This document shows, one piece after another, positions 38,601-64,000 of a stretch of DNA of 64,000 nt. Made by a program: the position numbers and the translations under genes. The stretch's first letter is position 1, and every line of letters starts with the position of its first letter. The notes under the pieces are model-generated. The model saw nothing but the letters and a program-made list of their open reading frames with translations, had not been told where the DNA came from and did not search any database. Source of the stretch: Thelephora terrestris. Its lineage: Eukaryota > Basidiomycota > Agaricomycetes > Thelephorales > Thelephoraceae. The stretch lies in the NCBI GenBank assembly GCA_015956445.1, contig WIUZ02000008.1, positions 1,116,001 through 1,180,000 on the forward strand, read 5' to 3'.

Positions 38601-38969
38601 TCGCAGCTCACGAATAACGACCCATATACCACCATGTCCGTCGGGACAGCGCGCTTTTCCTTTTTCTTGTTCTCTCTGTGTCAACGTTCTATGTGCTTGT
38701 AAGGATCCGATCCGCATGTATTTATCGTGCCTACACCATTAGGCTGTTAGATTTCACTGTAACTTTACAACGATAAATTTTCTTGAGGTCTTACTTCGAT
38801 GAAAAAGCACTGGCAGTCCACTCCTCAGAAGCAAATCGTCGTTCCCTTCGCAATGCATTCAATCAGTTGAGGCGCTTTTTGAGATTCAACTTCTGCGATT
38901 GGCTCGATTTGATTTTCTAACGCCCCCCCACATAACATCTCGTGAAACGTCCAACATTCTAATGTTGCC
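38601..38969. other. intergenic, nothing recognised
   Basis: No gene or repeat recognised between the metacaspase stop and the first 421-bp repeat unit. Confidence 0.5.
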
Positions 38970-40232
38970 GTTCGGACTTTGGGTTTCGCCCTTGCGAAGG
39001 GGCTCATCAGAGGGCTTACCCGCTGCCCTAACCCGTCCTCGAGATCTTTATGTACTACCCATTTTTGGATGTATCCTAGTGGATTCCACGCAGCGCCTAT
39101 CTGTCAGCGCGTTGATGCGTTTGACCACAGGAGATGGGTGCAGTGTGGGGGGTCAGACTCAATCAGGTGGGGCGCTCCCTGCCTCGGCACCTTCTTGACA
39201 TTGGACCATGTAGGCGTAGCTGACAGTGACGCAACCTACACAACCGACTGAATGCCTGCCATAGACAGGACTTTTCATACAAAGATCTGTCGATCCAATC
39301 TACCCCACACTTCATTCAGTCGGCCTTCTCCGAAGATAAGGTCGAAAAACAACAAAGTGCTGTGTCTTGGGTGAGATTGGAACCGAAGACGTTCGGACTT
39401 TGGGTTTCGCCCTTGCGAAGGGGCTCATCAGAGGGCTTACCCGCTGCCCTAACCCGTCCTCGAGATCTTTATGTACTACCCATTTTTGGATGTATCCTAG
39501 TGGATTCCACGCAGCGCCTATCTGTCAGCGCGTTGATGCGTTTGACCACAGGAGATGGGTGCAGTGTGGGGGGTCAGACTCAATCAGGTGGGGCGCTCCC
39601 TGCCTCGGCACCTTCTTGACATTGGACCATGTAGGCGTAGCTGACAGTGACGCAACCTACACAACCGACTGAATGCCTGCCATAGACAGGACTTTTCATA
39701 CAAAGATCTGTCGATCCAATCTACCCCACACTTCATTCAGTCGGCCTTCTCCGAAGATAAGGTCGAAAAACAACAAAGTGCTGTGTCTTGGGTGAGATTG
39801 GAACCGAAGACGTTCGGACTTTGGGTTTCGCCCTTGCGAAGGGGCTCATCAGAGGGCTTACCCGCTGCCCTAACCCGTCCTCGAGATCTTTATGTACTAC
39901 CCATTTTTGGATGTATCCTAGTGGATTCCACGCAGCGCCTATCTGTCAGCGCGTTGATGCGTTTGACCACAGGAGATGGGTGCAGTGTGGGGGGTCAGAC
40001 TCAATCAGGTGGGGCGCTCCCTGCCTCGGCACCTTCTTGACATTGGACCATGTAGGCGTAGCTGACAGTGACGCAACCTACACAACCGACTGAATGCCTG
40101 CCATAGACAGGACTTTTCATACAAAGATCTGTCGATCCAATCTACCCCACACTTCATTCAGTCGGCCTTCTCCGAAGATAAGGTCGAAAAACAACAAAGT
40201 GCTGTGTCTTGGGTGAGATTGGAACCGAAGAC
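38970..40232. repeat. tandem repeat, three units of 421 bp
   Basis: Three head-to-tail units begin with TTCGGACTTTGGG at 38971, 39392 and 39813, and the last ends with GGAACCGAAGAC at 40232. The copies look identical by eye, which points to recent amplification or homogenisation. The period is not a multiple of three, so it is not a coding repeat; the 85- and 101-codon frames in each unit simply recur. The right edge cuts into a copia-like gag frame on the minus strand. Confidence 0.93.
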
Positions 40233-43339: not shown

Positions 43340-45740
43340 GAGAATGAGATGGATGGAGAGAGAGAGAGATGGATGGAGAGGAAAAGAGAGATAAGATGAG
43401 CGAGTTTTTTTTGGGGATATGGGGATATGTCGTGTGGGATCGGATCGGGCTTCTTGTTCTTTGAGAATGTCGTCATATTAATTATACTGTGTCTATTCGT
43501 CTTCTATGGGGTCGTCTGCCTCTATAACGTCTAATCCTATCTTTTCTACCAAAAAATACTGATCACCAAGTCCATCAATCGAGAAGGGAAATGGAACCAT
43601 TGCAACAACGGAAAGAATCGACTTAGCGTCGATAACTACCAATGGCTGCCCTACAATATACCTACAGACAACAAGAGTGTTGTGAGTGCGCGTCAGCACA
43701 TGTTCGTTTGGCGGGGTATAGAGCAATGCGAATGCAAAAGCCCGTAACACGTCCCCGAAATTCTTGAAGAAGTAGAACTTAATCTCGGCAAAGTAAATGG
43801 CATCTTGATAGAAGATCTGCGGTACTTTTTGTCAATGACGTACAACTCTAAGTCAAATCAAGCGGGCGTACCTTAACATTGCGATCCATCCGTGACATAC
43901 CTGAGCACCGTTCGGATTCCTTCCACCGAGATCTCGCGATCTGTTTGGTGGGAAGCTTGAGCCGTCCCCATCGGTGGACAGTGTGCCGGTCGACGCCTTC
44001 AGAACCTGGATAGTTAGAGAGGAAGTCGTCGAGTACCAGCTGTTCGTCGTGGGGGAGGTGATACAGGCTTGTGTCTTTCGGCCCCAGTAGCAAATAGTCG
44101 TCGCCTAGATCTTTAGATCCCCGAGGGTCGTCAGTTTTTTTTTGTAACTCGGGCCACATCGCGACAAGTGTGTTGGTGTGTGCGACCCGCTTCGTTTGTG
44201 CCGCAAGGTTGCGGTAGATATTTGATGGTTGTCTAAGGAGGTTGCCAAGGTAGCCGATAGTTCGTTCCATCGTCCACTGAGAAGAGAGCCAGAGGGGTCC
44301 TAGCCGGTGTGTCTCCCGCGCGAGATGAGTGAGGGAATGAACACACTGACGTACAAAATGGAGCCGGTTTGGGTTCCGCTGGCAATAGATAATCTCGAAG
44401 TCGAGAACCCACTGGAGAAGGAGCTGATGTGCAGTTACCAACTGCTCCCGAGAGATGGCACGCTGGTGGATGATCCGGATCGCCCGAACGAGCCTGCAGA
44501 AGTGATAATAATAGAGATCGGGAAGAACACCGTAGAAAACGCCAGGTCCGAGGCCGTAGATATAATTGAGGAATTCCCAAGCCTTGTAACCGCTCGAGAC
44601 TTTCTCTTGCGGATTCCGGGGTGGACGGCCAAAAGAAGTTGGTAAATATTGCGTAGCCTCTGAGACGACCCTGCCGTGAGCTTTCCAGACGTTTCCTTTC
44701 AGTATGGCCCAGGGCCATCGCGTCGAGCGATCGTAATCACGAGCAGCAGGCCGAGCACACCAGAGATCGATGAACAGAGCGGCGAGGTTTATCAGGGGTT
44801 GGTGCATAAGATCGCCCGGGAAGCAGGTGGGAAGAGGAAGGGTGCGAGGTATCCCAGATACGATACTCGGCTTTCCTATACCTGTATTATAACGACGCCT
44901 CCTGTATTCGGTCTGGTTTCCCGAAGAGATTACGTCCAATAAGTCCTTCTTGTATTTCTCGGGGTCTGGAACCGGCAGGGAGTTGACGTCGATATCGGCA
45001 TGCGAGGAGGATCTGTGCGCCTCAAAGCCAGTGGGTCGCAGAAGGGCTGGATAGTAGTGAGATCCCCGGTCCTTATTTCGTCCTTTTAAGCCGCAGAGGA
45101 GTCTGCAGCCACACCGACCATGATGTCCAACAGATCCGCTGAGATGTGCCATAGCGAGTGAGTCCGCCAAGTCCAGAAAGAGGTAGATGTATGAGATGGC
45201 CTGCTTTCGATAGTAGGCGTCCCAAACGGGCAAACCTTCGCGCTGAAGCGCAGACACATGGGCCATACCAGGGAACAAGAACAAGTCAAAGTCTTTAGGT
45301 GGTTCTGGGCCGGGAATAATACCTCCAGGAAGAATGTTGCGTATCTTGTAACGCTTATCAGGCCCCAGATCCACGAGAATCCATAGGTAGATCCAGCAGT
45401 CGGATTGTTTGCTTTCGTGGAGTTGTGCGCCATCCATCGATAACATAAGGACCGTGTCGTATTCCCGGATAGTCCCATCGTCGACGAGGTCCAGATAAGG
45501 CGTACCACAGAGGATGTCGTCGTAAATCCCAGGGGGATTGCCAGATGCCGCACGTTCGCGCAGAAGTTCCTGAGTCTTCTCCCACCGGTAGTGCATGTCC
45601 TTTGCCGTCTGGAAGTGTTTCCGATGGGCCTGGATCTGGGGACCAACTGGAAAGGTCGTGAAAACCTTCACAGGCACCTTTCTGTCCCCACCAGATTTGT
45701 CCAGCTCCTTTTGATCATAGCGGGACTCTCCACAACGCGG

Positions 45741-46769
45741 TGACATGCCTCCATTCTCTGGAGTACTCGTCGGCGACATTCCCTACGTCCCTTTCCCTCG
45801 GGATGCTTCGCGACGTTTCTATACTCTCTATACCTTCCTACCCCCCCCCCCCCTATGCATCCCTATACTTCCCTACATACCCGTATATCTCCCTTTACCT
45901 CACTACTCCCTTCCCTATACTAACCTACTCGTCCCGATGCTTTGCGACCTTCCCGATGTTTTAGTATTCTCCCTATCTCTCACTACCCCCCCCCCCCCCG
46001 ACCTCCCTATATCCCTCCCAACACTACACCATTCGCGACCCCTCCTATATCTTCTCCCGACTTCCCTATACCTTCGCGATATCTCCCTACACCATTCCCC
46101 TCAATCTCTCGATCCCTATGCTCGATCATTCCCTTTTGGTTCATTTCTCAACCACATCTCTTTCCTTGGTTGTTCCCTTCGATCCCTCGCCCTCCCTATG
46201 TCATAGACTCGTCATTAGGTCTTTTGACATCATTTGGTTCATTCCCTCTTGCTTCCTACGTTCTCAGAGCCTCCTAGATTAGTATATAAGCCTCTGTATT
46301 CGATAGACTCACCAGAGACCAATCCAGGGGACTGATTCCCATGTTTTCCTCTCCCTATCGTTCTCCTCTCGTCGTCGTCGTCTCCCTATAGTCTCCTGCG
46401 TCTTCCCTATCGTTCTCGTCGTCATACCTGCGTCTCTGCATTCTCGTCGTCGTCTCTAGCGTCCTGTCGTCATCCCGAAGATCCCGACCTCCCGAAGTTC
46501 TCATCGTCGTCCCGAAGTTTTCCCTCGTCGTTCCTTTGTCTGTTTCATTGATTCCCTTCTGTTATCTTTAGTTATCTTTAATTCCCTCTTGATATCTACT
46601 TCTCCCTACACGTCCCGACGTTCCCGACGTTTCACTACATTTCCCTACAGTTCCCTACGTGTCCCTACGGAGCTAGGAGGCATCGTACGACTAAGGACCA
46701 CCTTCATCGACGTTGACAGGGCACCCCATCTTCTCCCCATCGGACTCTAGCCCACATAGCCCCTGTTCA
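45741..46769 (+). mobile_element. solo LTR, 1029 bp, inside the transposase
   Basis: Begins TG (TGACATGCCT) and ends CA (CCCTGTTCA), flanked by a 4-bp duplication GCGG (45737-45740 and 46770-46773). It is strongly C+T-rich on the + strand, with C runs near 45841 and 45988. It contains a TATA box about 540 bp in, as expected for a U3-R boundary. No internal retroelement sequence is present, so it is the product of LTR-LTR recombination. It splits the CPRC zinc motif of the transposase. Confidence 0.85.
46283..46290 (+). promoter_or_regulatory. TATA box of the solo LTR
   Basis: TATATAAG, followed at about 30 bp by CTCACCAGAGACC, a plausible start of the R region. It places LTR transcription on the + strand, antisense to the interrupted transposase. 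Confidence 0.65.
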
Positions 46770-48170
46770 GCGGACAGCGTTCTAGGCAAGTATATGGCCC
46801 AGTGAACCCGACACAAGATCTAGCACACATATGGTGCTCCCAGGTAATAACGCCAGAGAGGTTTTCGGCCCTTCGCTTGATCTGGTAGTACGAAAGGACC
46901 TCTATATCAGGGAAACATTGCTTGATGTTTTGGCGTGCGTCCTCATAGGCGTTCTGCGACTGATTCATAAAGGAGATATAATTCAGCAGAGAAAGACGAA
47001 GAACAGGGTCGTCTGGAGGCGTGGATACGTGTTCTTGAGGGTCAAGGAGTTCCGCGAGGTCATCGGGACCAAACTGAGTCTCGAGGGTGGCTTCCTCCAC
47101 CATGCGAATAAACTCAAGGGAGATGCGAATCTTCGGGATAATGGTGTGAGGAATTTTGACCCTAGGTGGCGGCGTTCGCACATAGTCATCGCGGTCAAAA
47201 TCCGATGGAGGAGGAGTGGGTGGGGGAGCTGGAGGAGGAGATGGAGGACGAGGGGAAGAGGGTTGAGAACGAGGTGGGGGTGACAGATTTCGAGGAGTAG
47301 GGGGCTGGGATATCTCACTGGGGGCAAGGGGTCAAATACCCGGTGGGTACATGCTGAACACATTGTGATCACAGTCAACAAGTAATCACAATGTGCCCAG
47401 TGGGGAAAATTTGAATACATTCAAAATGTGCCTGGCCATGTGGATCCAATGTGTCCAGTGGGCACATTTTGATTGCGATCACAATGTACCCATCAATTTG
47501 ATCTCAATGTACCCACTGGGGACATTTTGATTGCAATCACAATGTACACATCAATGTGATCTCAATGTGCCTGCTGTGCACATTTTAATTTCTTTCACAA
47601 TGTTCCCATCAATGTGTTCACAATGTGCCCAGCTCATTACATAATGGTTTCTTTCGCAATGTTGTCCACAATGTGTCCAGCATGTGGCTGAGCCACTCAT
47701 TCAAACTTCTTTCACAAAGTATCCAGTGATGTGTCTAGAATGTGTGCAGCCATATACATAGTGATTTCTTTGGAAGTTCATGGTGAAATTGAACAATATT
47801 GTGATTACATTGTGATTACTTCAAAAAGAACCCCCTAGGGACATTATGGACACATCACTGGATACTTTGTGAAAGAAGTTTGAATGAGTGGCTCAGCCAC
47901 ATGCTGGACACATTGTGGACAACATTGTGAAAGAAACCATTATGTAATGAGCTGGGCACATTCATCAGGAAACCTACAACGGCTTTAACGGCTTTGAGGC
48001 TTTCGGGGGCTTTCGAGACTCGATCATCGTCTGGTCTCGCGGGTTCGTCGATCGGCTTTCGGGTGGCTTTCGGATGGCTTTCGTGGCTTCCAGTCGGCCA
48101 TGTAGTTCCTGCACAGTGTTGTGCGCCCTTCCCATATCCTTCAATACAGCTACCATTACAAGGGTGTGTA

Positions 48171-48546
48171 CTAAAAAACTGTCTCAAATGCGTGATAATC
48201 TATGTACTTATTTACATAGAAATAACAGAAGTTGTCGAGAGTCGTCGAGTAGTGAAGTTCCCCAGGAACAAATTGGTCCCCGAAGTAAGGTAACAGATGA
48301 ATGCCCCGAAGCACGGTGTCAAGGTGAATGACCGACGCATGCTGCGTGTCGTTCGGGGTCAGTTCTGGCCGAACGAGCCACATGCCCGTTTCTTCTTCGG
48401 GTGAGTCAGCGACACATTCGAACCATTCGACGAGATCACATGGGTACTCAACGTCATCATGGTTGAAGGAGAAGAACAGTTTGACTTGTGCGACATGGGT
48501 CCCACTGTCAGGGTTGTAGGCCTGCTTACTGTTTGTGGGGCGCTAG
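48171..48546 (-). pseudogene. transposase-like C-terminal fragment
   Basis: Frame reading AQVKLFFSFNHDDVEYPCDL, then GMWLVRPEL, VIHLDTVLRGIHLLPYFG and YFYVNKYIDYHAFETVF to the stop at 48171. This matches my memory of the C-terminal end of one group of basidiomycete KDZ/Plavaka-like transposases, different from the tail of the Plavaka transposase outside. No catalytic part precedes it. The frame overlaps the end of the upstream gene by a few codons in another frame. Confidence 0.55.
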
Positions 48547-49149
48547 AGGATTAGCGGATGGATGGGGGGTGTCGGGTCTGGTTTTGAAGGGGGTTCCGGG
48601 CGTGGAGATGAGAGGAGGAGGGATATCAAGAGAGAGAGGAGACTCTGTCTGATAAGGGTGTACGGGTGAGTGGTAGTCTTGGCAGAACTGGTTGAGTTGC
48701 TGCACGAAGGGTTCGAAGTCTTGGTCGCTAAGGCGTTCGAAGCTGACGAGATATTCTATAACCGAATAAGGTAATTCAGTTGGGATTTCCCACCAAAGAA
48801 CGATGATAGCAGGAGAATGAGTATGGATGTTAGTGGTGAGATGAACTCGTGGGGAGGGAAAGTAAAAGGCTGGACTGATACTGAAGTAGACGGTGGCAAG
48901 GACGCTTTCAGTAAGATCTGAATTCCAAAGGAATTGATGATCGGCTCCTAGGAGAAAAGGGGGAGTAGTGACTCCGGCGTCGAGAGCTGCAAAGGGGCGG
49001 TAGTAAGGGAAATGGGTGAGTAAACCGTTGGTTCGGTTTACTTGAAGACTTCTGATGAGTTTATACTCCCAGATAGATCTCCTAGCGTCAGGGATGACTG
49101 GTCGCTGAACAGGGCTTGTAGAGAGGAAGGGGTTAGGAGCACTGAACAT
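48526..49149 (-). CDS. unrecognised protein in the CATCAGG element
   Basis: An uninterrupted 207-codon frame from ATG 49149 to TAA. The first 150 residues look like a folded domain with many aromatic residues (FPYYRPFAALDAG, YFSISPAFYFPSPR, AIIVLWWEIPTELPYS, FVQQLNQFCQDYHSPVHPY). A Pro/Ser/Thr-rich tail follows. I recognise no family. It runs into the transposase-like fragment at 48546-48171, which lies one base out of frame, so the two may once have been one gene. It diverges from the gene at 49805 across a 655-bp gap. Confidence 0.5.
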   Translation of the reverse strand: MFSAPNPFLSTSPVQRPVIPDARRSIWEYKLIRSLQVNRTNGLLTHFPYYRPFAALDAGVTTPPFLLGADHQFLWNSDLTESVLATVYFSISPAFYFPSPRVHLTTNIHTHSPAIIVLWWEIPTELPYSVIEYLVSFERLSDQDFEPFVQQLNQFCQDYHSPVHPYQTESPLSLDIPPPLISTPGTPFKTRPDTPHPSANPLAPHKQ

Positions 49150-49804
49150 ACACTAGCAGGAAGATTCCTGCTGAAATGAGTTAGAAAGGGGTAAGGCGTG
49201 AGGAGAATTCCTCAGCTTACTTTTATTCAGGTTGTGGATAGAGGAGTACAGAAGAGATTGAGAATGGGGAAAAGAAGGAGCGAACGCTCTTCCTTATATA
49301 CCCGATTCTCTACAGGAGTCAGTATTCTACAACGAGTCAAGCAGGAGTCAACATGGTCTGTGCGTAGTTTAGGGTAGGGTAGATGAGTCGGGGAAGTGGA
49401 ACTTAGAGCGACGAATGATGATATGAGCTAGGGGAACAATAGCGAATGATTCTTTAGAAGCGAAGTGGGGATTTCTCGTGTTTCATGGTAGTAGTAGAAG
49501 ACTGATGGGGATTTCCTATGATCGATGGGGATTTCTCTCGTTTCATGGTGGTAATAGAAGGCTGATGGGGATTTCTCATGATCGGTGGGGATTTCTTGGT
49601 TTTGATGGGATCGCGATTGGGACTGAGGGCTCGTTTGTCCTAATTGGGACTTTAATGGATAATAGGTTATTGTTTTCCCTTTTCGGTTCCCTTTTGAGTC
49701 AGGGTGTATTTAAGTCAGGGGGATTAATGATTGTTCCCCTCATCGTCTCTTTTCCACTCCCACCAAACACCAGTACCACCTTCTCCCAAATATCCAGTAC
49801 TACT
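49150..49804. other. divergent promoter region in the CATCAGG element
   Basis: No gene. It contains imperfect repeats of about 50 bp built on GATGGGGATTTC and GTTTCATGGTAG between about 49470 and 49600. They are readable as a frame from 49478 but too repetitive and atypical to be coding. TTATATACCC near 49297 could be a minus- or plus-strand TATA element. It separates the two divergent cargo genes. Confidence 0.5.
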
Positions 49805-50708
49805 ATGTCTTCCTTCGTTGCCAACAACGTCGTGCTCAACGCTGCCGCCACCCCCTTCACCCCGTCCTTCGAGACGGATGCTCCCTACGACATGGAGCAA
49901 CACTTGTATGACTCCCCTGCCAACATCGCTCACGACAACCAGGTTGCCGTTAACTTCCTCACCGCTCATAACGCCCCCGCCGAGTTCTGGGAACAGGCTG
50001 GTTACGAGGATCCCAGGCTTTCTGGGCCTCATGTTCAAGCTGCTCACCCTGGGGCCGTTCGTTTGTTAGACGTCATGGAGAGGGATCGGGAGGATAGGAT
50101 TGCGAAGTTGGAGAAGCGTGTGGACCTCATGTACGTCATCATGAACAGTTTAAATGATGACTTCTCTCACTTTGCTTTGGAACATTGGGGACCCTTCCAG
50201 GCATCTCTCTTCCGATATTTCGGACACCAATGTCACGGAACTTATTGCACCGACCCCCCTTGCAAGTCCCCAGTCATCCCTTCGCCACCGCCAGGATCAG
50301 GGCGTTCCTCTCCCTCCATCCCCTCCCTGGAGTCCTGCCCCAGTTCGCCAGATGGTGGAGAGGTCCCAGAAGAAGAAGACCCGCAAGAGTCCGATGACTC
50401 ATTCTGGTCAACGTTGTCGTCCCTCCGACAAGTCACGTCAGGTGAGGATGAAGTTGAAGGTGGAAGTGGCGGGTCTCCAAGACCGCTATGGGTTCTCCTT
50501 AGTGAGCGCAGCCTTGTTGGACGTGAAGCGGGAGATGTATGAGAGTTTATCTCATGATGTGTTGGGGTGTAGAGAGTGTTGGCAGGATCCGGTGACGCGA
50601 GAGTGGTCGTACTGTCCTGAGAGTGTTTATAACCCTCATCACTTTGCTCATCGCTGCCCTCTTCCTCAGAATTGTTTATGTGATATCGACCCGTTTGTTC
50701 TTGTCTGA
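49805..50708 (+). CDS. unrecognised cargo protein of the CATCAGG element
   Basis: Exons 49805-50441 and 50503-50708 join in phase to 280 residues; the 61-bp intron has GTGAGG and CTTAG ends. The N-terminal part is acidic and globular (MEQHLYDSPANIAHDNQVAV, AEFWEQAGYEDPRLSG), followed by a short coiled-coil-like helix (RDREDRIAKLEKRVDLMYVI). A Cys/His cluster follows (HQCHGTYCTDPPCKS) and a Ser/Pro/Glu-rich linker. The C-terminal exon contains a second Cys/His cluster (GCRECWQDPVTREWSYC, then HHFAHRCPLPQNCLCD) that could bind zinc. I know no family with this layout. The start at 49805 was chosen over the in-frame ATG at 49478, because the upstream part is repetitive DNA. Confidence 0.6.
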
Positions 50709-50979
50709 GTTTGTAGTTCTTTTTTGTCACCTTTGTACTTTTATTACTGCGAATGAGACCAATGTCTTGAATTACTTGCGAGATCTTGGCTACTATGTCA
50801 CGCGTTCGTGACACCCACCAAAAAAACCATCAGTGTCGTTGAATCGTCCTCCAGACGTCGAGAATGATCCCAAGCCGTGAGGGTGAATTGATTAATACTG
50901 CTTGTAATGTACTATCATGTAATCAAATGGCTGGTTGAACACAAAGATACCCCTCGTTGTTTTCTTGATAAGTCGTCCC

Positions 50980-51185
50980 GCGAATGGCTTTCGAACCGCT
51001 TTCACGTGGCTTTTGATCGGCTTTTGTGACTTTCGGGGGGCATCCGTTCGGTTAAGCCGTTCGTCAGTTTGACTGGCTTCCGTGGCTTTTGGCTTTGTGG
51101 CTTTTGGTGGCTTTGCCGGCTTTGAAAGCCATCAAAAGCCACGGCAAGCCATCAAAAGCCACGGCAAGCCATCAAAAGCCGATAT
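50980..51185. repeat. subterminal GGCTTT motif cluster
   Basis: More than ten GGCTTT or CGGCTTT motifs, turning into AAAGCC near the end. They include three tandem copies of about 20 bp (AAGCCATCAAAAGCCACGGC) at roughly 51126-51180. The opposite end (47980-48090) carries the same motif. Such arrays are usually transposase-binding sites. Confidence 0.75.
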
Positions 51186-51876
51186 GCAGGTTTCCTGATG
51201 TTGTGAACACATTGATGGGAACATTGTGAAAGAAATTAAAATGTGCACAGCAGGCACATTGGGGTCACATTGATGTGTACATTGTGATTGCAATCAAAAT
51301 GTCCCCAGTGGGTACATTGAGATCAAATTGATGGGTACATTGTGATTGCAATCAAAATGTGCCCACTGGGCACATTGGATTCACATGGCCAGGCACATTT
51401 TGAATGTATTCAAATTTTCCCCACTGGGCACATTGTGATTACTTTTTGACTGTGATCACAATGTATTCAGCATGTACCCACTGCGTATTTGACCCCTTGC
51501 CCCCAGTGTCTGCAGCGAAGTCAAATGTCCCTGATTATCTTCATTATCCTCATTATCCTGCACGGAAACCGTTCAGAATACACAGAGGGAACAGATTAGA
51601 TTAGCATATTACACTTACCGATCTAGGCGCTCGGCTAATGTTATCGAGGGGATCTACTTCTTCTGGCGGTTCTTTTACGTCCGTACGTCCAGAAGAGTTA
51701 GCCAAAGCCCTCAGAGGATTTCCTTGACTCCCGGTGCTGATGGAACTATCACGGGACACAACGGCACGTTGTCTCCGTTTCCGTTTCCGTTGCCGTTCCG
51801 GGTTATGAGTATTATAGGTCCCCCTGGATACAAGGCTTCCACAGCACTTCGGACAGTCGCAGAAATGGTCACCCAT

Positions 51877-53811
51877 CTCACAGAATTTAGAAAAATAGGT
51901 GGATCTTTGAAATACGGTGACGATATCAATGGGATTTGGATAAGATTGGGACTTGGAAATTTTTTTGATCGCGACGAGAGACTGTACAGACTCGTTCAAT
52001 AAAGATTTTATTGGGGTAAATGTAGAAATTATTGGGGTAGATGTAGAAACTATCTAAATGCCCCCATGGCCATGTCAGACGAAAATCGAACATCAACCAG
52101 ATTTAATCAACATCGATCTATTATTGAGTCGGTCCGAGTCGCCCCTGGTTGATCGCGTCGGGCTGAGTCGCGACCAATCCGTGCCGGTGGATGGACTTCT
52201 TACTGGGACTCAACACCTAAACCCGTGTGCAAATGGAATTAGAGGAAAATTATGCATTCATCGAGTTTCTGAGCATGTTCCTTATAAGCTCCGGTCCACG
52301 AGTGTCACTTTCGTCTTAGCGTCAGGCGCTGCCGTCAGATTCCCCTCGTAATTTATGCTCACGACCTCGTTGGCATTTCTCGCTCTGCTTGCCTCTCGAG
52401 CTAATAAAACAGTGGCAGGGGGAGATTCCCCGCCTTTTGTCAGGGCCACTCTACCCCAACAACTACCAGTTCACTGAGCCGACTCCGCAGAGTACTCACT
52501 AGTCCAACTAGCTTGTGAGAGAACGATCACGTCTCTATTCTTCCGGTAGGTTGTCCGAGGTCACTACAAGTCAGGTCGAAATCCTAAAGAGAAACCCAAC
52601 CTAAACCGTACTTCGTTCGGTTTAACAATCAAGGGTTGATCCCTACAACAGGATTGATGACTCCACCAGTTGATCGACTGGACGCTCGAGGTGTTCTAAT
52701 ATGACTGCGGGGAGTCTATAGTTACGAGGCGCAGTTGACGCGCAGAGCGGGAGGGAGAGCAGATGGGGATGTCTTGGATCAAACAAGAAACTCTGACTTG
52801 TCCTTAACGGCAACTGGGCTGAGAAGGGCAGAGGATTTCCTGAGGTAACAAAACTAAGGTACTACGATACAGCCACAGTTGCTACTTATACTAAAGGAGT
52901 GGCCATGACGTCAATACCCTAATATACCCTTATCAAGTCCAGAACAAAGGGAAATAAGGAGTGTGAGAACGCTAAGTAAGGGAAGCGAACAAAGGTGACG
53001 CGTGGGAGAATAAAGGACAAAGGGCCTTACTAGCGTGTGAAGGATTGCATAAAAGATAAGGAATGTCCGCATGAAACATAGGGGTACAGATAACACTAGT
53101 CCTAAAAGAAAGAGGGGCATTGGGTCATTAAAGTTCGTACCTGGGGATCACACCCAAGGGCTAGGTGAGAATCTTCTTGGATGCTTCCTTTGGAGAGGCC
53201 AAAGATAGAGACCATGCAGCATCCCTTGTTGTCTGTAGGCGGTAACAGCATCACGGACTAGTGGCAACCTTATCGTGCGTCCGAGCATGAGGAGCGTGGG
53301 CCTAGACTCATGGGACATAAGGGATTACAGATTCGCCGGCGTTTCACGCTAACGGCTACTCCACATGCGCTGAGCTAACCAGAAGGATCCTAAGGCGATG
53401 CTTCCGAATAGCGGCGAGTCCTTCCTCCGGTTAGGAGACTGTGATGTGACTGTCCACGTGTGTGATCAGGGTCCAGGGTTGATCGTAATCGTAAAGTCAT
53501 GAGGGGTCGTAAAAGGGGTTCGTGATGTCATAAAGGGGTCATCAGGGTCTTGAGACCTATTTTTAGTGCGCGCGCATTCTAGGCGTTCCGGAACGAAATT
53601 CTTCCAAGGCCGTCCCGCGGGCCGAGGTGTCAGCTTGATGTAGTAAGCCAACGATGATGGTACAGGGGCGGAAGTTGATGTGACCCGGACCAATGAGGTT
53701 CGTCGAGGTAGGTCACGTGAAGGATCACCAATCTAGGCTATAAGAAGGACGTCTTCTTGGAGCCATCCTTGATCAGCAACACCAGCAACTTCCCCATCAT
53801 CTTACCACAAC
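51877..53811. other. intergenic, possibly unrecognised LTR
   Basis: No gene found. Roughly the first 200 bp probably belong to the Plavaka 5' end. On the minus strand AGTATAAGTAG near 52885, followed by several hundred bases without open frames, looks like an LTR U3-R junction, but I could not find TG/CA ends or a target duplication. The last 60 bp are the leader of the gene at 53812. Confidence 0.4.
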
Positions 53812-55553
53812 ATGTCCTTCCCCAACAACCATACCTACAAAGTCGCCAACGGCATCTCCACCATCTCCCGTATCGACCGTCGTGCCGCTGCTCGCAAGAC
53901 CTATGCCTGCGCGACGGGGACTCCCTATACCACTGATGACCAGGTATGGGGGAGACCTAGAGCTTCGTGTGTTCGCACTAACGCCTTCCTCTAGGTAGAG
54001 GTTACGTTCTTTTGGGCGTTGATGTCCAGCTAACGGCTTCTAGATCTTGGAGGTTATCACGGAAGTGGACGCCGAACGTCTCAGGGAGACAATGCCTCAT
54101 TTGATGGGGTTGACCTGGGACGATGAGCTCTGGGTCCACACGATCATTGCCGAGAAGGTGGCCTTCCAGATGAGGGGTAGGTTCGGGGTGTTGGAGCATC
54201 CGATCAAGAAGGAGCTCTGGTACACCCTTCAGAGGGGAATCTGCGATCAAGACCTGTTGGAGCACGGAGCGACCGTTCCTCGGGCCGTCCGCCATGCCAC
54301 TGCTGCCACCTCGTTGTTGTGGTCGCTCGTTCGAGAGGGGGAGAGCAAGGTAGGTTCTCCGTTTGGATTATTCGAGTATGACTCTCGACTAACCAAACTG
54401 CCTAGGTTGAGTGTTTGGAGCGCGAGGTGAAGGAGGCGAAGGCAGACGTTCTACGTTTGTCGGCAGAGGGTCTTCAGATGAAGGAGACCTTGGCTGCCTT
54501 TCAACAGGGAACGAACGAGGCGTTGGAGGCAATGGTCGCCAACCATCAGGAGTTGATCGCCGGGTTGAAGGTTAGGGACAATAACATTAAGGGAGTGTTG
54601 GCCAGGAGGGATGAAAAGGTAATGCCGCTTTCATCATTTGCTTAGAATGATGGAAGCTGACATTTCCTAGACCGAAGAACTCGAGAACGTGGTGGCTGTG
54701 TTGACAGCGCAGGTTGAGACCTTGCAGGACAAGACCTGCAACTGCAAGGAGGGTCCCAAATTGGTTGGTCAGGGGACAGCAGACGTTCCGTTCGAGTTGG
54801 AATACGCCGATGAGGTGGTACTCCCATCGCCTAACCCGTTGTCCTATGCGACGCCTCCGATCGAGAACTCGGTTCCCGTTCCGACTCCGGCTCCGGCTTC
54901 CACGTTGGCCGAGTCCGACAAGGAGAACTGTCATCGCTGCCCTTTGCAGCTGATCAGTCAGCTGGTGAAGATCGAGGATGAGGTCATGGAGGTCGACCGG
55001 GCCGAAGATGTTCCGAGGGCCATTGAGGTACGTCCGGTGACAACAGGGCAGCGTTGTAAACGCTCTCGACGCCGTGTTGCTCATCGCATGGCTCCATCGG
55101 CTAACCCTTATCCACGTCCAGTTGAGTCGGATGGTGACCAGTCTGGTCGAGGTGGGGGACGAGAGTTCCACTATCGGGTCAACCGTCCCTACTGACAGGT
55201 CGAGTCGGAGGTCCAGCTTCGCCAGCAGCGTAGACTCGCAATACAGGATCCCACCCAGGGGTCCGACGAGGGAGACGGAGGGTCGCTTGCCGACTACGTC
55301 GATAGTACTGCCGAGCAGTCACCCGGTGATGGAGATGTGGGACCAGGTGTTCCAGAGTTCGGTGACATCTGGGAGGCTGATCGGTCCGTTCGAAGGCATC
55401 TCTTCCTATCGGCTTGAACTAGTCGTTCAGCTGAGTGCCGAAGATGGTGACGCCATGTTCGGGGAGATCCTCGCGAGGAGGGGCCAGCACTACGATCTCC
55501 GGGATGGACAGTTGATGACTTTTAGGCCTGCCGTAGATAGAGTCGACTTTTGA
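53812..55553 (+). CDS. unrecognised coiled-coil protein, 479 aa
   Basis: Exons 53812-53943, 54044-54349, 54406-54618, 54671-55027 and 55122-55553. Every intron lies in phase 0 and the sum is 480 codons. The N-terminal half looks globular (DAERLRETMPHLMGLTWDDE, IAEKVAFQMRGRFGVLEHP). Residues about 147-240 form a heptad-rich helix (CLEREVKEAKADVLRLSAEG, ELENVVAVLTAQVETLQ). CNCKEG, a Pro-rich stretch and KENCHRCPLQL follow. The C terminus (WDQVFQSSVTSGRLIG, YRLELVVQLSAEDGDAMFGE) again looks folded. I recognise no family. The last exon was chosen because GTACGT at 55028 and CCAG at 55121 keep phase 0 and open the long final frame; reading through instead stops at 55195. It sits among transposons and may itself be element cargo. 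Confidence 0.65.
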
Positions 55554-55922
55554 TGGGATTGGGATAGCACTTGTATAGCTCGTTGTGGATTCGCTGGGAA
55601 TAGTACGCGCATGTGTGTGTTTCGAATGATTGGTGTGAAGGATAAGGAGGGTGAAGCATTCAAAACATAAGAAGTGGTAAGAAGAGTTCGAAGAAAGAGC
55701 GTGTTATAAAAGTTCAAAAATACCATGTTCCTGACACCTTTGGAATAATGAACCTCCGGAGCCCACACTCGTCCATTTAAATAGCGGGCCTGCAAAAACG
55801 AATGGTCCAATGATCAAGAAAAGTTAGTGTTGTGGTTTCAGCATTTCCCGGGGGAACCGTAAGCACATACATGCGAATATCAACTGCACCCTTCAGATAC
55901 ACGATTACAGACCCTCCCGCGC
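55554..55922. other. intergenic, nothing recognised
   Basis: A convergent 3' region between the coiled-coil gene and the F-box gene. No motif or repeat was recognised. Confidence 0.5.
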
Positions 55923-57552
55923 TTAATCTCCCATCTTCACCTCAACAAGTGGCACAAGTTTCCTTAGCCTGTGGATTGAGGCAACGCTTGGAAAGACCCC
56001 ATTCAAATTGACGATCTTGACCTGATGCAACCACGCGGAGGTTGTACCCCTGCGATCCGACGCATATCGCGTCAGTTGCTCCATAAACTCCTCGTCGAGA
56101 TCACAGTCCACGAAAATCAGGGTTGTGAGGGAATGGGGGGATGAAGGATTGGAAAACAGAGCGGAAAGGAGGTGGGATACACTGGTTTCGCAGTCGACGG
56201 CAAGAGTTTCAAGGGCGGGGAAGGGTGACTGATCAAAAACTATGAGGTTGAGAGTGTGGCGCACATTCTCCGGCACGCGGTGAAGAAGGTGAAAGCTCTG
56301 AACGTGTGTGAGAGAGAGGAAGGGGAACTCTTCAAAGGGATCGCCTCCGGTTAGGCCACGCTTGTCACACAATGAGAGTTTTCCATTTGGACCGGTTACT
56401 CCGATCGTCCTCGGATAGGATCGATACAGCATGTGAGTTGGGGAGCGCGCGTTTAAGAGGTGTGTAGGGGAGACGCCAGACAGGATATCATTCAATTTAG
56501 CGTCACTGTAAGCGCACATAGCTAAGTCAGCACCTCTTTGGAGTGCTATGCCGGAGATTAGTGCGTGGGCGTCCATTGCGTGCCGACAGAAGATCGACAG
56601 ACGTTGGAGCTGGTTCCTGGCTGGGGTTTGACGTCGCGAACAACGGAGGGAATCTGTTCTGAAAACGATGTTCAGAATCACGTGTTTAAGCGAATGATTC
56701 CCCTCCAAAAAATCTAAAAGGGTATCCAGGGGTAGGTCGAACCCGGGATTGCTATAGACCAACTCCGTGAGCGATCTGAGTTGGAGAATTGCTGGGTAGA
56801 GAGGGATTTCCGACAATTGGAGGCATCTCAAAGTGGGGGTTAGTGATTCGAATGGATCGACAGATCGATCCCAAACGGCCCCAACGGCTGAGTTGAGTCT
56901 AAGTAATCGGAGATTGGGCGTTGACCGAGGAAACCCCGGAACTGCCTGCCTGAGTTTTTCCATGGTTACCAGTTTTATATATCGCAGAGTGTCAATGCTT
57001 TGGATATATGGTGTCGGAACGCAGCAGGGCGAGGGAGTTTGGAGGGTCACTTGCAAGGGGGCCGTCTTGGCGCGCTCGAGAGTCAACTCCGTCAACCCCT
57101 CGTCGAGGTCGGAAATTAGCGTCCAATTGGCGGAGTCTGATGTGATGGAGCTGCGCCAGTACCGGCATACGTGGGTCAACGGAATAATTGGTCTCGTGTC
57201 CACGGCGGTACCGTCGTGCAGGAGACATTGGGCGATGCGCGAAAGGATCTCCGGTGGTAATCTGTTGACTGGTTGTAGCAAGTTCCGCAAAGAGGGAATG
57301 AGACTCAGAACTTCTTGTGCTCTGGTTTCGAGACTTCTGATCTAGAGGATTCCGGGTAAGATGTAAGATTTCGCTACCACAATCGTTGAGATGGGTAAAT
57401 CTAGATGGACTCACTTCAGTCTCTAGAGAGGCGGTTGAAACGGCAGGAGGAGGACGGTATTCTCGTAGTCTGTTACATTCCAAGTAGAGTTTCTCGTTCA
57501 GCACACAGAGGAGCTCTGGGATGGATAGATCGCGGGCGGCGTCCGACGACAT
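55923..57552 (-). CDS. F-box protein, intact paralogue
   Basis: Exons 57552-57415 and 57341-55923 (donor GTGAGT, acceptor CTCTAG) join to 518 residues. Layout is usual for Agaricomycete F-box proteins: a short N-terminal helix (EIRSLETRAQEVLSLI), the F-box at about residues 72-115 (NRLPPEILSRIAQCLL, then IPLTHVCRYWRSSI), and leucine-rich segments to the C terminus (LRCLQLSEIPLYPAILQLRS, LDTLLDFLEGNHSLKHVIL). Splicing is needed: reading through the intron gives a different, non-F-box frame. It would serve as substrate receptor of an SCF ubiquitin ligase; the substrate is unknown. A close paralogue lies upstream at 58990-60139 in the same orientation. Confidence 0.87.
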
Positions 57553-58989: not shown

Positions 58990-60139
58990 TTATATTAAGT
59001 CCCTCAGCAACTCAACGCCCACCCTCACGTCAACGACTGGAACGTGTTCCTCCAGTTTTCGGATCGAAGCCACGCTTGGGAAGATCCCATCCGCGTTGAT
59101 GATCACGACCTGATGCAACCATGCGGAGGTTGTACCCTTGCGGTCCAATGCATATCGTGCCAGTTTCTCCATAGATTCCTCATCGAGGTCACAGTTCAAG
59201 AAGGCGAGGGTCTTGAGTGAAGGCGGAGAGGAGGGATTTGAGAACAGCTTGGAAAGGAGGTGAGACACGCTGGTTTGGCAGTCGACAGCAAGAATTTGGA
59301 GAGCGGGGAAGGATGACTGGTCAAAAACTACGGGGTTAAGAGTATGATGCTCATCCTTCGGCATACAGTGAACAAGGTGAAACCTCTGGATGAGGGAGAG
59401 GGAGAGCAGGGGGAACTCTACAAAGGGATCACCCTCGCAAAGGATATGTGCGCTCTGCAACGAGAACTCTCTATTTGGGCCGATCAGCAGGATTTTTCTC
59501 CGATAAGTCCGATATCGCATGAGAGTCAGGGAGTGCAGGTTTAAGAGGTGTTGAGAGGAGAGACCGGACAGGATAGCGTTTAATGCACCCGCGGTACTTG
59601 TGATGTCTAAGCAAGCACCTCTCTGGAGAGCTATGCCGGACACCAGTGCTTGGGTGTCTATTGCGTGCAGTGAAAAGATGGGCAGGCATTGGAGTTGGTT
59701 CCTGGCCGGGGTTCGACCTTGCGAATTACGGAGAGAATCATCTCCTAAAGCGATCCCCAGAGCCACCGATTTAAGCGATTGGTTCTCCTCCAAAAAATCC
59801 AAAAGGGTGTCCAAGGGCAGGTCAAACACGATATGGCGGTAGTCCAACTCAGCGAGTGATCTGAGTTGCAGGATTGAGGGGTAGAGGGGGATGCCCAACA
59901 ACTGGAGGCATCTCAGTTTGGGGGTTAGCGATTCAAACGGATCGACAGATTGATCCCAACTCTTTCCACTGGGCAAGCAGAGCTTCAGTGATCGGAGATT
60001 GTGTGTCGACTGAGGAAACCCTGGAAGTGTCTGCCTGAGTTCCTCTATGGTCGCGAGACCGATGAACCGTAGAGTACCAATGTTTTGGATATATGCTGTC
60101 GGAAAGTGGCAGGGCGCGTCATCTTCACTGGCCACAAGA
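58990..60139 (-). pseudogene. F-box paralogue truncated by transposon insertion
   Basis: An open frame close to the gene at 55923-57552 throughout: YIQNIGTLRFIGLATIEELR, DPFESLTPKLRCLQL, LPLDTLLDFLEENQSLKS and GTTSAWLHQVVI. Reading upstream, the similarity stops exactly at the CACTG element beginning at 60140. The F-box itself and the first exon are therefore missing here and should lie beyond the transposon stack, outside the window. AGA at 60137-60139 is the presumed target-duplication copy. A protein could only start inside transposon sequence, so the gene is considered inactivated. Confidence 0.8.
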
Positions 60140-60895
60140 CACTGGGGACAAGGGGTCAAATACCCGGTGGGTACATGCTGAACACATTGTGATCACAGTC
60201 AAAAAGTGATCACAATGTGCCCAGTGGGGGGAATTTAAATACATTCAAAATGTGCCTGGCCATGTGAGTCCAATGTGCCCAGCAGGCACATTTTGATTGT
60301 GATCACAATGTACCCATCAATGTGATCTCAATGTGCCCACTGGGGACATTTTGATTGCAATCACAATGTACACATCAATGTAAACTCAATGTGCCTGCTG
60401 TGCACATTTTGATTGTGATCACAATGTTCCCATCAATGTGTTCTCAATGTACCCAGCTCATTACATAATAGTTTCTTTCACAATGTTGTCCACAATGTGT
60501 CCTGCATGTGGCTGAGCCACTCATTCAAACTTCTTTCACAAAGTATCCAGTGATGTGTCTAGAATGTGTACAGCCATACACATAGTGATTTCTTTGAAAG
60601 TTCATGATGAAATTGAACAATATTGAGATTACATTGTGATTACTTCAAAAAGAACCCCCTGGGGACATTATGGACACATCACTGGATAATCTTTGGAAGA
60701 ATTTTGAATGAGTGGCTCAGCCACATGCTGGACACATTGTGGACAACATTGTGAAAGAAACTATTATGTAATGAGCTGGGTACATTGAGAACACATTGAT
60801 GGGAACATTGTGATCACAATCAAAATGTGCACAGCAGGCACATTGAGATCACATTGATGTGTACATTGTGATTGCAATCAAAATGTCCCCAGTGG
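60140..60895. mobile_element. CACTG foldback element, left part
   Basis: Starts CACTGGGGACAAGGGGTCAA and follows the element at 47316 almost base by base for over 700 bp, including the central palindrome. It is cut after CCCCAGTGG by a retrotransposon LTR; the corresponding sequence in the other copy continues for about 200 bp to its right end. The remainder should lie on the far side of the retrotransposon. It interrupts an F-box gene. Confidence 0.85.
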
Positions 60896-61035
60896 TGTAA
60901 GGATCTGTACTTAGTCTGGCCCGCGCGCCGTTATCAATCAATCATGTGATCGTTTCCTTTTTCGTCGAGCTGTGCTCAAGTTTGAACGCGAGGTATAGTG
61001 ATTAGAAATCACTCGTAAAATCCTATTATTTTCTG

Positions 61036-61698: not shown

Positions 61699-62199
61699 CA
61701 CTGGGGGCAGGGGCACCTGGAATCGGTGATTACATCTTGATTACATGGTGAGTTCATGTGCACTGTTCAATGATTGTAATTGCCAATTCCAGGTTGATTA
61801 CATTTCAAATGTTACCTTGACATGTAATTCAACTGTTGCCACCAACTCCATTTGAAATTGCCTCAGGATGTTTCCAAGCAATGTTTCCTGAATGTGCCCA
61901 GTGGGTACATTGTGAAAACATCTCATGTTTTTGAGCGCATTTAGATTACATCTCGGACGATTGAAGAACATGCTGATTACATTGCAGTATCATTTTTGCC
62001 GACAGGTCAAAAGCATCCCAGAAACATTTTTTGAGAACATTTCAAATGGAATTGGTGGACATTGGTTGGATTACATGTCAAGGTAACATTTGAAATGTAA
62101 TCAACCTGGAATTGGCGATTACAATCATTGAAAAGTGCACATGAACTCACCATGTAATCAAGATGTAATCACCGATCCCAGGTGCCCTTGCCCCCAGTG
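61699..62199. mobile_element. 501-bp MITE with CACTG ends
   Basis: Ends CACTGGGGGCAGGGGCACC and GGTGCCCTTGCCCCCAGTG, flanked by TCT (61696-61698 and 62200-62202). The inverted arms stay nearly identical for well over 120 bp (GGTGATTACATCTTGATTAC and onwards) around a short centre. It has no coding capacity. It belongs with the elements at 47316 and 60140 by ends and target duplication, but its interior differs, so it is a separate family. Confidence 0.92.
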
Positions 62200-62990
62200 T
62201 CTACAGCCGTCCCAGAGGAGCGCCTCTCGGGACGAGGACCAGGGTCAAGAAAACCGGTCTCAGTTTTCCCCTGACGTCGGGATGCCGTCCGCGAAGGGCG
62301 AGGAGTTTGGTCGGCCCAACAACGAGTCGGGCGACGACGACGAATTTATTAATAATAAAATAAATCCTACAATTTCGCCCAGTAGGGACGAGGTCGAAAC
62401 TAAAGTCCCAGGGACTGACCTATCCGAACGTGGGGATGAGTCTGAGAGCGAGGTCGAAAACGCCTTGAACCCAGAGGAACCCGCACAAACTAAGGACGAA
62501 ATTGATTTTGATGGGGATGACGAAGGTGACACCGAAGATGATGGCGACGTAAGCGACGCCAGGAACTCAATGAAGGGATCCGAGAATGGAAATGGGTCCG
62601 AAAGCGATGGTTGGAAAACCGTCCCCAGGAGTAAGAGTGTCTCGCCGGTTAATAAATTGTCCCCTGTCAGACGTTTCGAAGGAAATGAACGATATTTCCC
62701 TAAAGATACTCCGGTCGAAGAAACGGAGGGTGAGGAAGACGATTCTATGTTAGTCTCCTCGGCTAGATTACCTGCAGCCCGTAAGATGAACTACGATAAA
62801 TCTAGGAGCTTGGACACCATCGCGCAAAATTACGGTGTGTCCGAGAAATCGAATTTATTGCACGAAAGGGGACAGGAATTATTGTCTTTACTAAATGCTG
62901 GTGATACCGAGACGTCCGTACCGCGAAACAAACGAGCAAAATTACCTACGACTATGTTCAACAATTTGGGAGACTCGGCTCCACCGCCAT

Positions 62991-63053
62991 CGATAAGCAG
63001 CGTGATGGCTACGATAAGCAGCGTGATGGCTACGATAAGCAGCGTGATGGCTA
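62991..63053 (+). repeat. three 21-bp units coding ISSVMAT in gag
   Basis: The unit CGATAAGCAGCGTGATGGCTA starts at 62991, 63012 and 63033, in frame with gag. A polyglycine/proline-coding stretch follows at about 63260-63380. Confidence 0.9.
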
Positions 63054-64000
63054 CGGTAACCAGAACCTTTACCGGGATATCGACCGCGCTAGGAATAAAC
63101 CCTGGAAACAACAAAGGGAATTCGGTTAGATCGGAATCAGGATCAGAAGGCGGCGGCAATACCCCCGGCAAAGGACAAGGAGGATCCGGTTCAGGAAACA
63201 ACCCAGGCGGCTCGGGAGCAAACCCACCTACGCCAACCCAGGGAAGGGGAGGAACGAATCCACCACCCCCACCTCCACAAGGAGGCGGAGGCGGGGGAGG
63301 AGGCGGAGGTGGAGGCGGAGGTGGACCGGGAGGCGGACCGGGAGGAGGAGGAGGACCAAACCCCCCGCCGCCACCGGCAGCAGGAAACCAACCGGTACCC
63401 GGTCACGTACCCGGAAATAATTTTAAACTTACCTTACCCGATCCGTATGATGGGAAGGAGGATATGGACGCTTTCGACATCTGGAAATACGAGGTCAAAT
63501 ATTTTGCAGAATATTACAGCCTTACCGATGAAACGCTCGTTAAGACGTTCTCTAAATTTGTGTCTGGGAGGGCAAAAACTTGGTATCTTCGCTTCGTTGT
63601 TGACGACCCGACGCAATGGACGCCCAAAGACGTATTCAATGGGATCTTTAATCATTGCTTCCCGGCCAACTATCAGATGAAGTTGAGGGAACGGCTGATG
63701 AAGATGAGGCAAGGATCCAAAAGCGTCAGGGACTACGCTAAGGAAATTGAGACGTTGGGACGCCGATTCCGGGACGTCAACGAACGAGCAATAATCGATA
63801 TATTTTGGAACGGAATTCATAAACACTTGCAAGTCGCATTATTGCGAAGGGGTCTGAACCCGGAAAAAGATGATTTATTGCGGCTATTAAAATACGCTAT
63901 ACTAGAGGAAGAGGCGGATGACCGAGCTAATAGAAACGCCGCCTCGAACTCCAGTAAACCTCGAGCGGAGGGCGAGAGACAGCTGAATAAACCCGAACGA

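Follow-up and report, generated by a model that had tools for sequence, protein, structure and literature searches.

Which mobile element owns the protein-coding frames at positions 47963-51200 of the window, i.e. the whole 64,000-nt stretch of DNA analyzed here? A first-pass annotation had assigned a pair of divergently transcribed genes in this region to a transposon with CATCAGG ends. When the genome (40.6 Mb in 60 contigs, with gene style and repeats of fungal appearance) was scanned with this region, the genes were found to lie within a separate mobile unit of 2308 bp, nested in the CATCAGG element and provided with its own target-site duplication. This 2.3-kb unit carries three protein frames, designated A, B1 and B2, and we lean towards reading it as a solo long terminal repeat (LTR) of a Ty3/Gypsy-type retrotransposon, carrying genes of its own.

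The 2.3-kb unit and the CATCAGG element around it

The search with 47963-51200 as the query gave 58 matches, obtained from the best 40 of 385 candidates scored. The boundaries of the unit are sharp: 35 of the 58 listed matches extend from query base 540-544 to 2851-2857, which corresponds to window positions 48506-50813, within a few bases. The ends TGTCA and TGACA, a 5-bp inverted repeat of the TG...CA form typical of LTRs, are present in all 27 full copies, and a perfect 5-bp duplication flanks 25 of these 27 full-length matches. Two of the full copies (L049 and L050) are identical and belong to one inverted duplication, which leaves 26 distinct copies.

Exact matches to the 5′ end motif of the unit were found at 201 places in the genome (2 in the control), and to the 3′ end motif at 132 places (4 in the control); both are undercounts, one base per pattern having excluded T. 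A same-strand 3′ end was present within 20 kb for 45 of 99 5′ ends, while an exact partner was missing for the remaining 54. In this pairing, which favoured partners with matching duplications, 39 of the 45 pairs show a perfect duplication, none is shorter than 2.2 kb, and 29 span 2.2-2.4 kb, perfect duplications being present in 26 of the 29. Gene A was scored at 150 places in the genome, and the places of genes A and B merged by implied start number 188. The merged count may score units split by nested insertions twice, hence we take at least 150 places as a floor for the 2.3-kb unit.

The CATCAGG element itself is real but short and gene-less. Much of its earlier description was borne out: perfect inverted repeats (CATCAGGAAACCT) end it at 47963 and 51200, the subterminal repeats are rich in GGCTTT, TT stands at both sides, and a domain search detected no transposase. 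The uninterrupted homologous site that had been reported is also present in the same window (at approximately 60140-60899); it is a second copy of the repeat into which the CATCAGG element inserted, an older repeat with inverted arms of 308 nt showing 97% identity. The assignment of the gene pair as CATCAGG cargo, on the other hand, had to be abandoned, as neither of the two other complete copies compared (C4:1318579-1319483 and C60:829223-830127, 905 bp each) contains the frames. Both align with the left flank (bases 1-543) at 98.5% and with the right flank (from base 539) at 98-100%, and the sequence CCCAC, which occurs twice in the window element, is single in both. These 905-bp copies thus represent the empty site. 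The 2308-bp unit inserted at a later time, into a CATCAGG element that had no genes.

The longer forms of the unit that were read contain nested insertions. Several of them were considered as larger autonomous partners and rejected: the 5.6-kb forms L062 and L063 are 2.3-kb units with a nested 3.3-kb repeat (described below), a 13.9-kb form on C4 is a 2.3-kb unit with a full retrotransposon (the C4 element, also described below) nested in it, and the 3.3-kb form L064 contains another repeat. Two more, of 4.7 kb and 10.2 kb, were classed as nests by their coordinates only. One further long form, of 6.4 kb, is located at C5:577236. All three 3.3-kb-family insertions read inside 2.3-kb units (L062, L063 and C4:68486-82439) lie within gene A, two of them only 22 bp apart, which is a possible target preference. 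The repeat at window positions 45735-46772 has a copy, 95% alike, inside L064.

Three protein frames under selection

All three frames of the 2.3-kb unit are under strong selection in many copies. The view that mobile DNA here carries a small set of intact genes, divergently transcribed and of no recognised family, was sustained, and the 207-codon open reading frame (ORF) proposed earlier, here gene A, was confirmed on the minus strand. It is open along its entire length in 25 of the 26 distinct copies and stop-free in 141 of 150 scored places (of 413 candidates), while exon 1 of the originally proposed gene B is stop-free in 122 of 138 scored places (of 696 candidates). In gene A, site diversity across 30 aligned rows ranges from 0.12 to 0.41 at third codon positions and does not exceed 0.08 at first and second positions. 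Ratios of nonsynonymous to synonymous substitution (dN/dS) were calculated by the Nei-Gojobori method from the 26 copies, a sample that consists of the top DNA matches to the window and is thereby biased toward intact ones. The ratios obtained for the three frames (Table 1) compare with 1.47-2.04 in wrong frames and 0.74-0.82 in the stretch between the genes.

The plus-strand partner of gene A had been annotated as a spliced gene (B) of 280 residues with two Cys/His clusters. Coding DNA with two such clusters is indeed present, one in B1 and the second at the C end of B2 (both recognised by eye), but two overlapping frames fit better than splicing. Frame 1 (B1) comprises 245 codons in 24 of 26 copies. 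For frame 2 (B2) the length, counted from an ATG just past a stop, is 184 codons in 25 of 26. Within 50160-50430 diversity is low at every codon position, and silent change (pS) in the overlap is 0.07 vs approximately 0.36 outside. Since silent change itself is held back there, dN/dS in the overlap amounts to 0.51 for frame 1 and 0.45 for frame 2.

A single spliced gene, composed of a frame-1 exon, a 61-nt intron and a frame-2 exon and leaving no separate B2, seems unlikely. It would account for the sequence GTGAGG...AG, 61 nt apart in 17 of 25 copies (with a GTGAAG donor in 2 more), and for the frame being restored when the 61 nt are removed. However, the donor is GTTCGG in the other 6 copies, the codon-position pattern of frame 2 persists through the supposed intron, both long frames are kept in nearly all copies, and silent change is suppressed where they overlap. 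In the divergent copy L062 (76-83% alike) the frame-2 protein is kept across the 61-nt stretch, the B2 ATG is missing and frame 1 is longer; in L063 frame 2 is broken. The proposed intron therefore looks coding, which favours B1 and B2 as two overlapping frames, and in some copies B2 may be started by splicing or +1 frameshifting. The 280-aa spliced model is matched at C59:446181-447062 by one uninterrupted open frame of 882 bp, 42 nt over the spliced length; this sequence may be an intronless copy or, just as plausibly, one in which the intron stretch was partly deleted.

Two divergent TATA motifs, invariant in the aligned copies, form a predicted promoter inside the 2.3-kb repeat (Table 1). 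The motif GGGGATTTC, situated between them, is present 3-6 times per unit in 26 copies.

None of the frames could be given a function by similarity. No Pfam match was obtained for A and B1 at an E value of 10, and the two matches of B2 (E values 0.08 and 0.11) were below the cut-offs. The best PDB hits had E values of 0.07 for B1 and 0.48 for B2, with none for A, and were not convincing. All three proteins were unmatched in PHROGs, and neither Rfam nor two IMG/VR scans gave a match. Structure prediction was unusable (mean predicted local distance difference test score 37.5 for B1 and 32.7 for A). No transposase was recognisable in the 2.3-kb unit by a significant Pfam, PHROG or PDB match. We infer that A, B1 and B2 may be accessory or regulatory retrotransposon proteins.

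Table 1. Features of the 2.3-kb unit and its surroundings (window coordinates).
Feature	Position	Strand	Remarks
Repeat with 308-nt inverted arms, outermost layer of the nest	47316..51508		arms 47316-47623 and 51201-51508; hosts the CATCAGG insertion
CATCAGG element	47963..51200		925 bp after subtraction of the nested unit and one CCCAC; flanked by TT on either side; no own gene seen
Target-site duplication, left	48501..48505		CCCAC
2308-bp mobile unit	48506..50813		starts TGTCAGGG, ends CGTGACA; read as a probable gene-carrying solo LTR
Gene A	48526..49149	-	207 codons; dN/dS 0.062
TATA box, A side	49294..49303	-	GGTATATAAG; invariant among 30 aligned rows
Five copies of GGGGATTTC	49465..49608	+	predicted promoter region shared between the genes
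TATA-like box, B side	49706..49715	+	GTATTTAAG; in 30 of 30 aligned rows
Frame B1	49805..50542	+	245 codons; Cys/His cluster (GHQCHGTYCTDPPC); dN/dS 0.106 in the unique part
Frame B2	50154..50708	+	184 codons, +1 to B1; dN/dS 0.130 in the unique part
Stretch removed by the intron model	50442..50502	+	61 nt; frame-2 codon-position pattern retained; dN/dS 0.12 over 20 codons
Target-site duplication, right	50814..50818		CCCAC
Second gene-bearing repeat	52438..55736		3299 bp; target-site duplication CCTTT; belongs to the family of the C4 retrotransposon LTRs

The 3.3-kb family and the affiliation of the 2.3-kb unit

The second gene-bearing repeat of the window belongs to a family whose members serve elsewhere as true LTRs. 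At C4:70595-82281 two same-strand copies of 3301 bp flank a core of 5085 bp, and a GTGAT duplication stands outside both of them. The core contains an Integrase_H2C2 match (C4:77518-77697, 66.5 bits) in an open frame of 1367 aa, on the strand opposite to that of the LTR copies, and this H2C2-type integrase would place it with the Ty3/Gypsy type. A purine-rich tract, CCAGGAAGAGGATAA, is located ahead of the 3′ LTR. A 287-bp stretch read from both LTRs is identical, while the other full-length 3.3-kb copies listed are 90-95% like the window copy. The 3′ end of this core was found at 8 places in the genome (96-100% alike) and is followed by an LTR start at all 8; the two that were read are both of the 3.3 type. 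We take the C4 element as a full-length LTR retrotransposon with giant coding LTRs. Its LTR pair is the only one of this geometry among the best 40 of 634 candidate 3.3-kb copies; other same-strand pairs, with shorter spacing, occur on C12 and C14, and on C16 an integrase match of another class lies 2 kb from a 3.3-kb copy, in the C4 orientation. Solo copies seem to dominate this family.

In the window copy of the 3.3-kb repeat, frame-periodic diversity extends over approximately 54044-55500 (four copies, one of them partial). The constrained frames are plus-strand segments in different frames, the last two overlapping, and no domain above curated cut-offs was found in them. The family shares with the 2.3-kb unit the TGTCAGGG start, the TGACA end and the 5-bp duplications.

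Because of its ends, its duplication, its constant size and the like-built 3.3-kb family, the 2.3-kb unit is read as a solo LTR, a view that we hold to be somewhat more probable than all others combined. The core would have been lost by recombination between two LTRs, so that a single 2.3-kb LTR remains. In the presumed sense of pol, B2 and B1 would lie antisense in the first kilobase of the LTR, followed by the divergent two-TATA promoter and by gene A. The latter ends approximately 20 bp before the LTR end, and genomic RNA would thus start with A. The three products would be accessory proteins, selected while the element is full-length and replicating, and an insertion would usually collapse to a solo LTR in which the whole gene set is retained.

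A number of observations weigh against this interpretation. Among the matches listed, none represents a full-length element with 2.3-kb LTRs, and no recurrent sequence was seen by eye adjoining 100 of the 132 3′ ends and 100 of the 201 5′ ends, apart from one inverted duplication. None of the 8 C4-type cores is followed by an LTR start of the 2.3 type, a TGG primer site is missing directly past the C4 5′ LTR, and a blastn comparison of the two families gave nothing beyond 15 bases, with only the ends shared. A listed 2.3-kb unit lies within 9 kb, on one side or the other, of 14 of 90 integrase loci; the sole locus with same-strand units on both sides (C23:2470877) is situated in a cluster, its pol orientation unlike that of C4. 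Selection on terminal branches is a further difficulty. The dN/dS ratio is 0.107 on these branches (806 silent and 279 replacement changes, 1 stop) vs 0.074 inside the tree, and mixing 0.074 and 1 leaves, by a rough estimate, about 4% of terminal branch time unselected, which is odd for dead solo LTRs unless all are recent. Either all sampled units died recently and descend from many live lineages, or replication is by the units themselves; the sparse sampling (26 of at least 150) lengthens terminal branches and softens this argument.

At one of the 14 loci, C59:692426, a 2.3-kb unit starts approximately 1.3 kb downstream of an integrase match. The spacing approaches that at C4, but the unit lies on the pol strand and has no upstream partner listed. 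The C4 polypurine tract joined to an LTR start of the 2.3 type has 7 matches (2-3 mismatches) vs 0 in a reversed control, none of them at the 8 cores; by a rough estimate this is about chance level beside some 200 unit ends. At C7:910427 and C17:231331 the end of a 2.3-kb unit lies approximately 360 bp and 108 bp, respectively, from an Integrase_H2C2 match; these matches are on the same strand as gene A, in open frames of 444 and 450 aa.

A considerably less probable explanation is that the 2.3-kb unit moves alone. It would be a compact element of three genes between LTR-type ends, inserted through an unrecognised recombinase- or integrase-like activity among A, B1 and B2 or in trans through the integrase of the 3.3-kb family. 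The lack of a core beside the unit in the lists examined would then be expected, the gene set is intact in most scored copies with low dN/dS even on terminal branches, as if it were self-replicating, and the termini of the two families are alike (TGTCA-S-GAAC at one end and CCCTGACA at the other). However, no recombinase or other domain was found in A, B1 or B2, a 5-bp inverted repeat as the only terminal symmetry is unusual for a cut-and-paste element, and the similarly organised gene-bearing repeat of 3.3 kb is a genuine LTR, most of whose copies seem to be solo.

The low terminal-branch dN/dS, together with overlapping frames and high silent-site diversity, could also be accommodated if the gene set were a selfish driver of the killer kind, or were kept in place by the host, and did not serve as retrotransposon accessory genes. 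We regard this as improbable, since selection in place on each of at least 150 redundant copies is hardly to be expected and no domain links the frames to a driver. The original idea that the genes are cargo of the CATCAGG transposon draws on their placement between its inverted ends, and merits next to no credence in the face of two empty copies out of two, with their single CCCAC target, and of a 2.3-kb unit that occurs with its own duplications at so many other places.

Other parts of the window also contain repeats and long frames. An open frame with a Retrotrans_gag match (E value 3.6e-10) at 62132-64000 runs off the window end. Positions 55926-57341 and 58993-60192 hold related long minus-strand frames, leucine-rich by eye, whose DNA is 75% alike over 1.07 kb, and within 38969-40110 three identical 300-nt stretches occur at a spacing of 421 bp.

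Genes in LTRs: precedents and meaning

LTRs are ordinarily non-coding, and longer LTRs tend to leave more solo copies. The ratio of solo to complete elements is quoted as correlating with LTR length (Du et al. 2012, cited in PMC7251063). A known exception to non-coding LTRs is sag, a protein gene in the LTR of betaretroviruses similar to mouse mammary tumour virus (MMTV); of 527 sag contigs, 490 lacked any further retroviral gene and were taken as solo LTRs (PMC4667437). By layout, the MMTV sag gene would be the closest precedent for the 2.3-kb unit, as it too lies inside an LTR, is mostly found in solo copies and shows signs of purifying selection in functional copies (PMC4667437). It differs in being a single gene of a mammalian retrovirus, placed mostly in U3, whereas the 2.3-kb unit has three frames, divergent promoter motifs and a +1 overlap in a fungal-looking genome.

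The 3.3-kb LTR family of C4 resembles the unit in having frame-periodic diversity along the strand that is read from the TGTCAGGG end and in the overlap of its last frames (four copies), but has a known core of its own and a sequence that is unlike the 2.3-kb unit beyond the ends. HBZ of human T-cell leukaemia virus type 1 (HTLV-1) and other retroviral antisense genes are read antisense to pol from LTR-linked sequence, an arrangement that the 2.3-kb unit would share if its presumed orientation holds; the coding sequence of HBZ, in contrast, lies mostly outside the LTR. LTR retrotransposons of bdelloid rotifers have captured ORFs beyond gag-pol, which the abstract does not place in the LTR (PMC5408684). 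A narrow search of the open-access literature yielded no paper on fungal LTRs with conserved genes, which is weak evidence of absence.

This genome holds two giant LTR-type families of unlike sequence, each with constrained protein frames; the 2.3-kb family has, in addition, a divergent promoter and an overlap that codes in two frames. LTRs that carry such a compact and conserved set of genes would belong to a kind already known, that of LTR-borne accessory genes, unless the units move alone; in that case they would constitute a class of mobile DNA which resembles an LTR yet moves on its own. The gain from having two accessory gene copies per element, one in each LTR, that outlive the core would become testable. 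If our reading of the 2.3-kb unit as a solo LTR is true, a large stock of intact accessory genes would reside in solo LTRs, which are usually regarded as dead remnants, and these genes would have been concealed by repeat masking.

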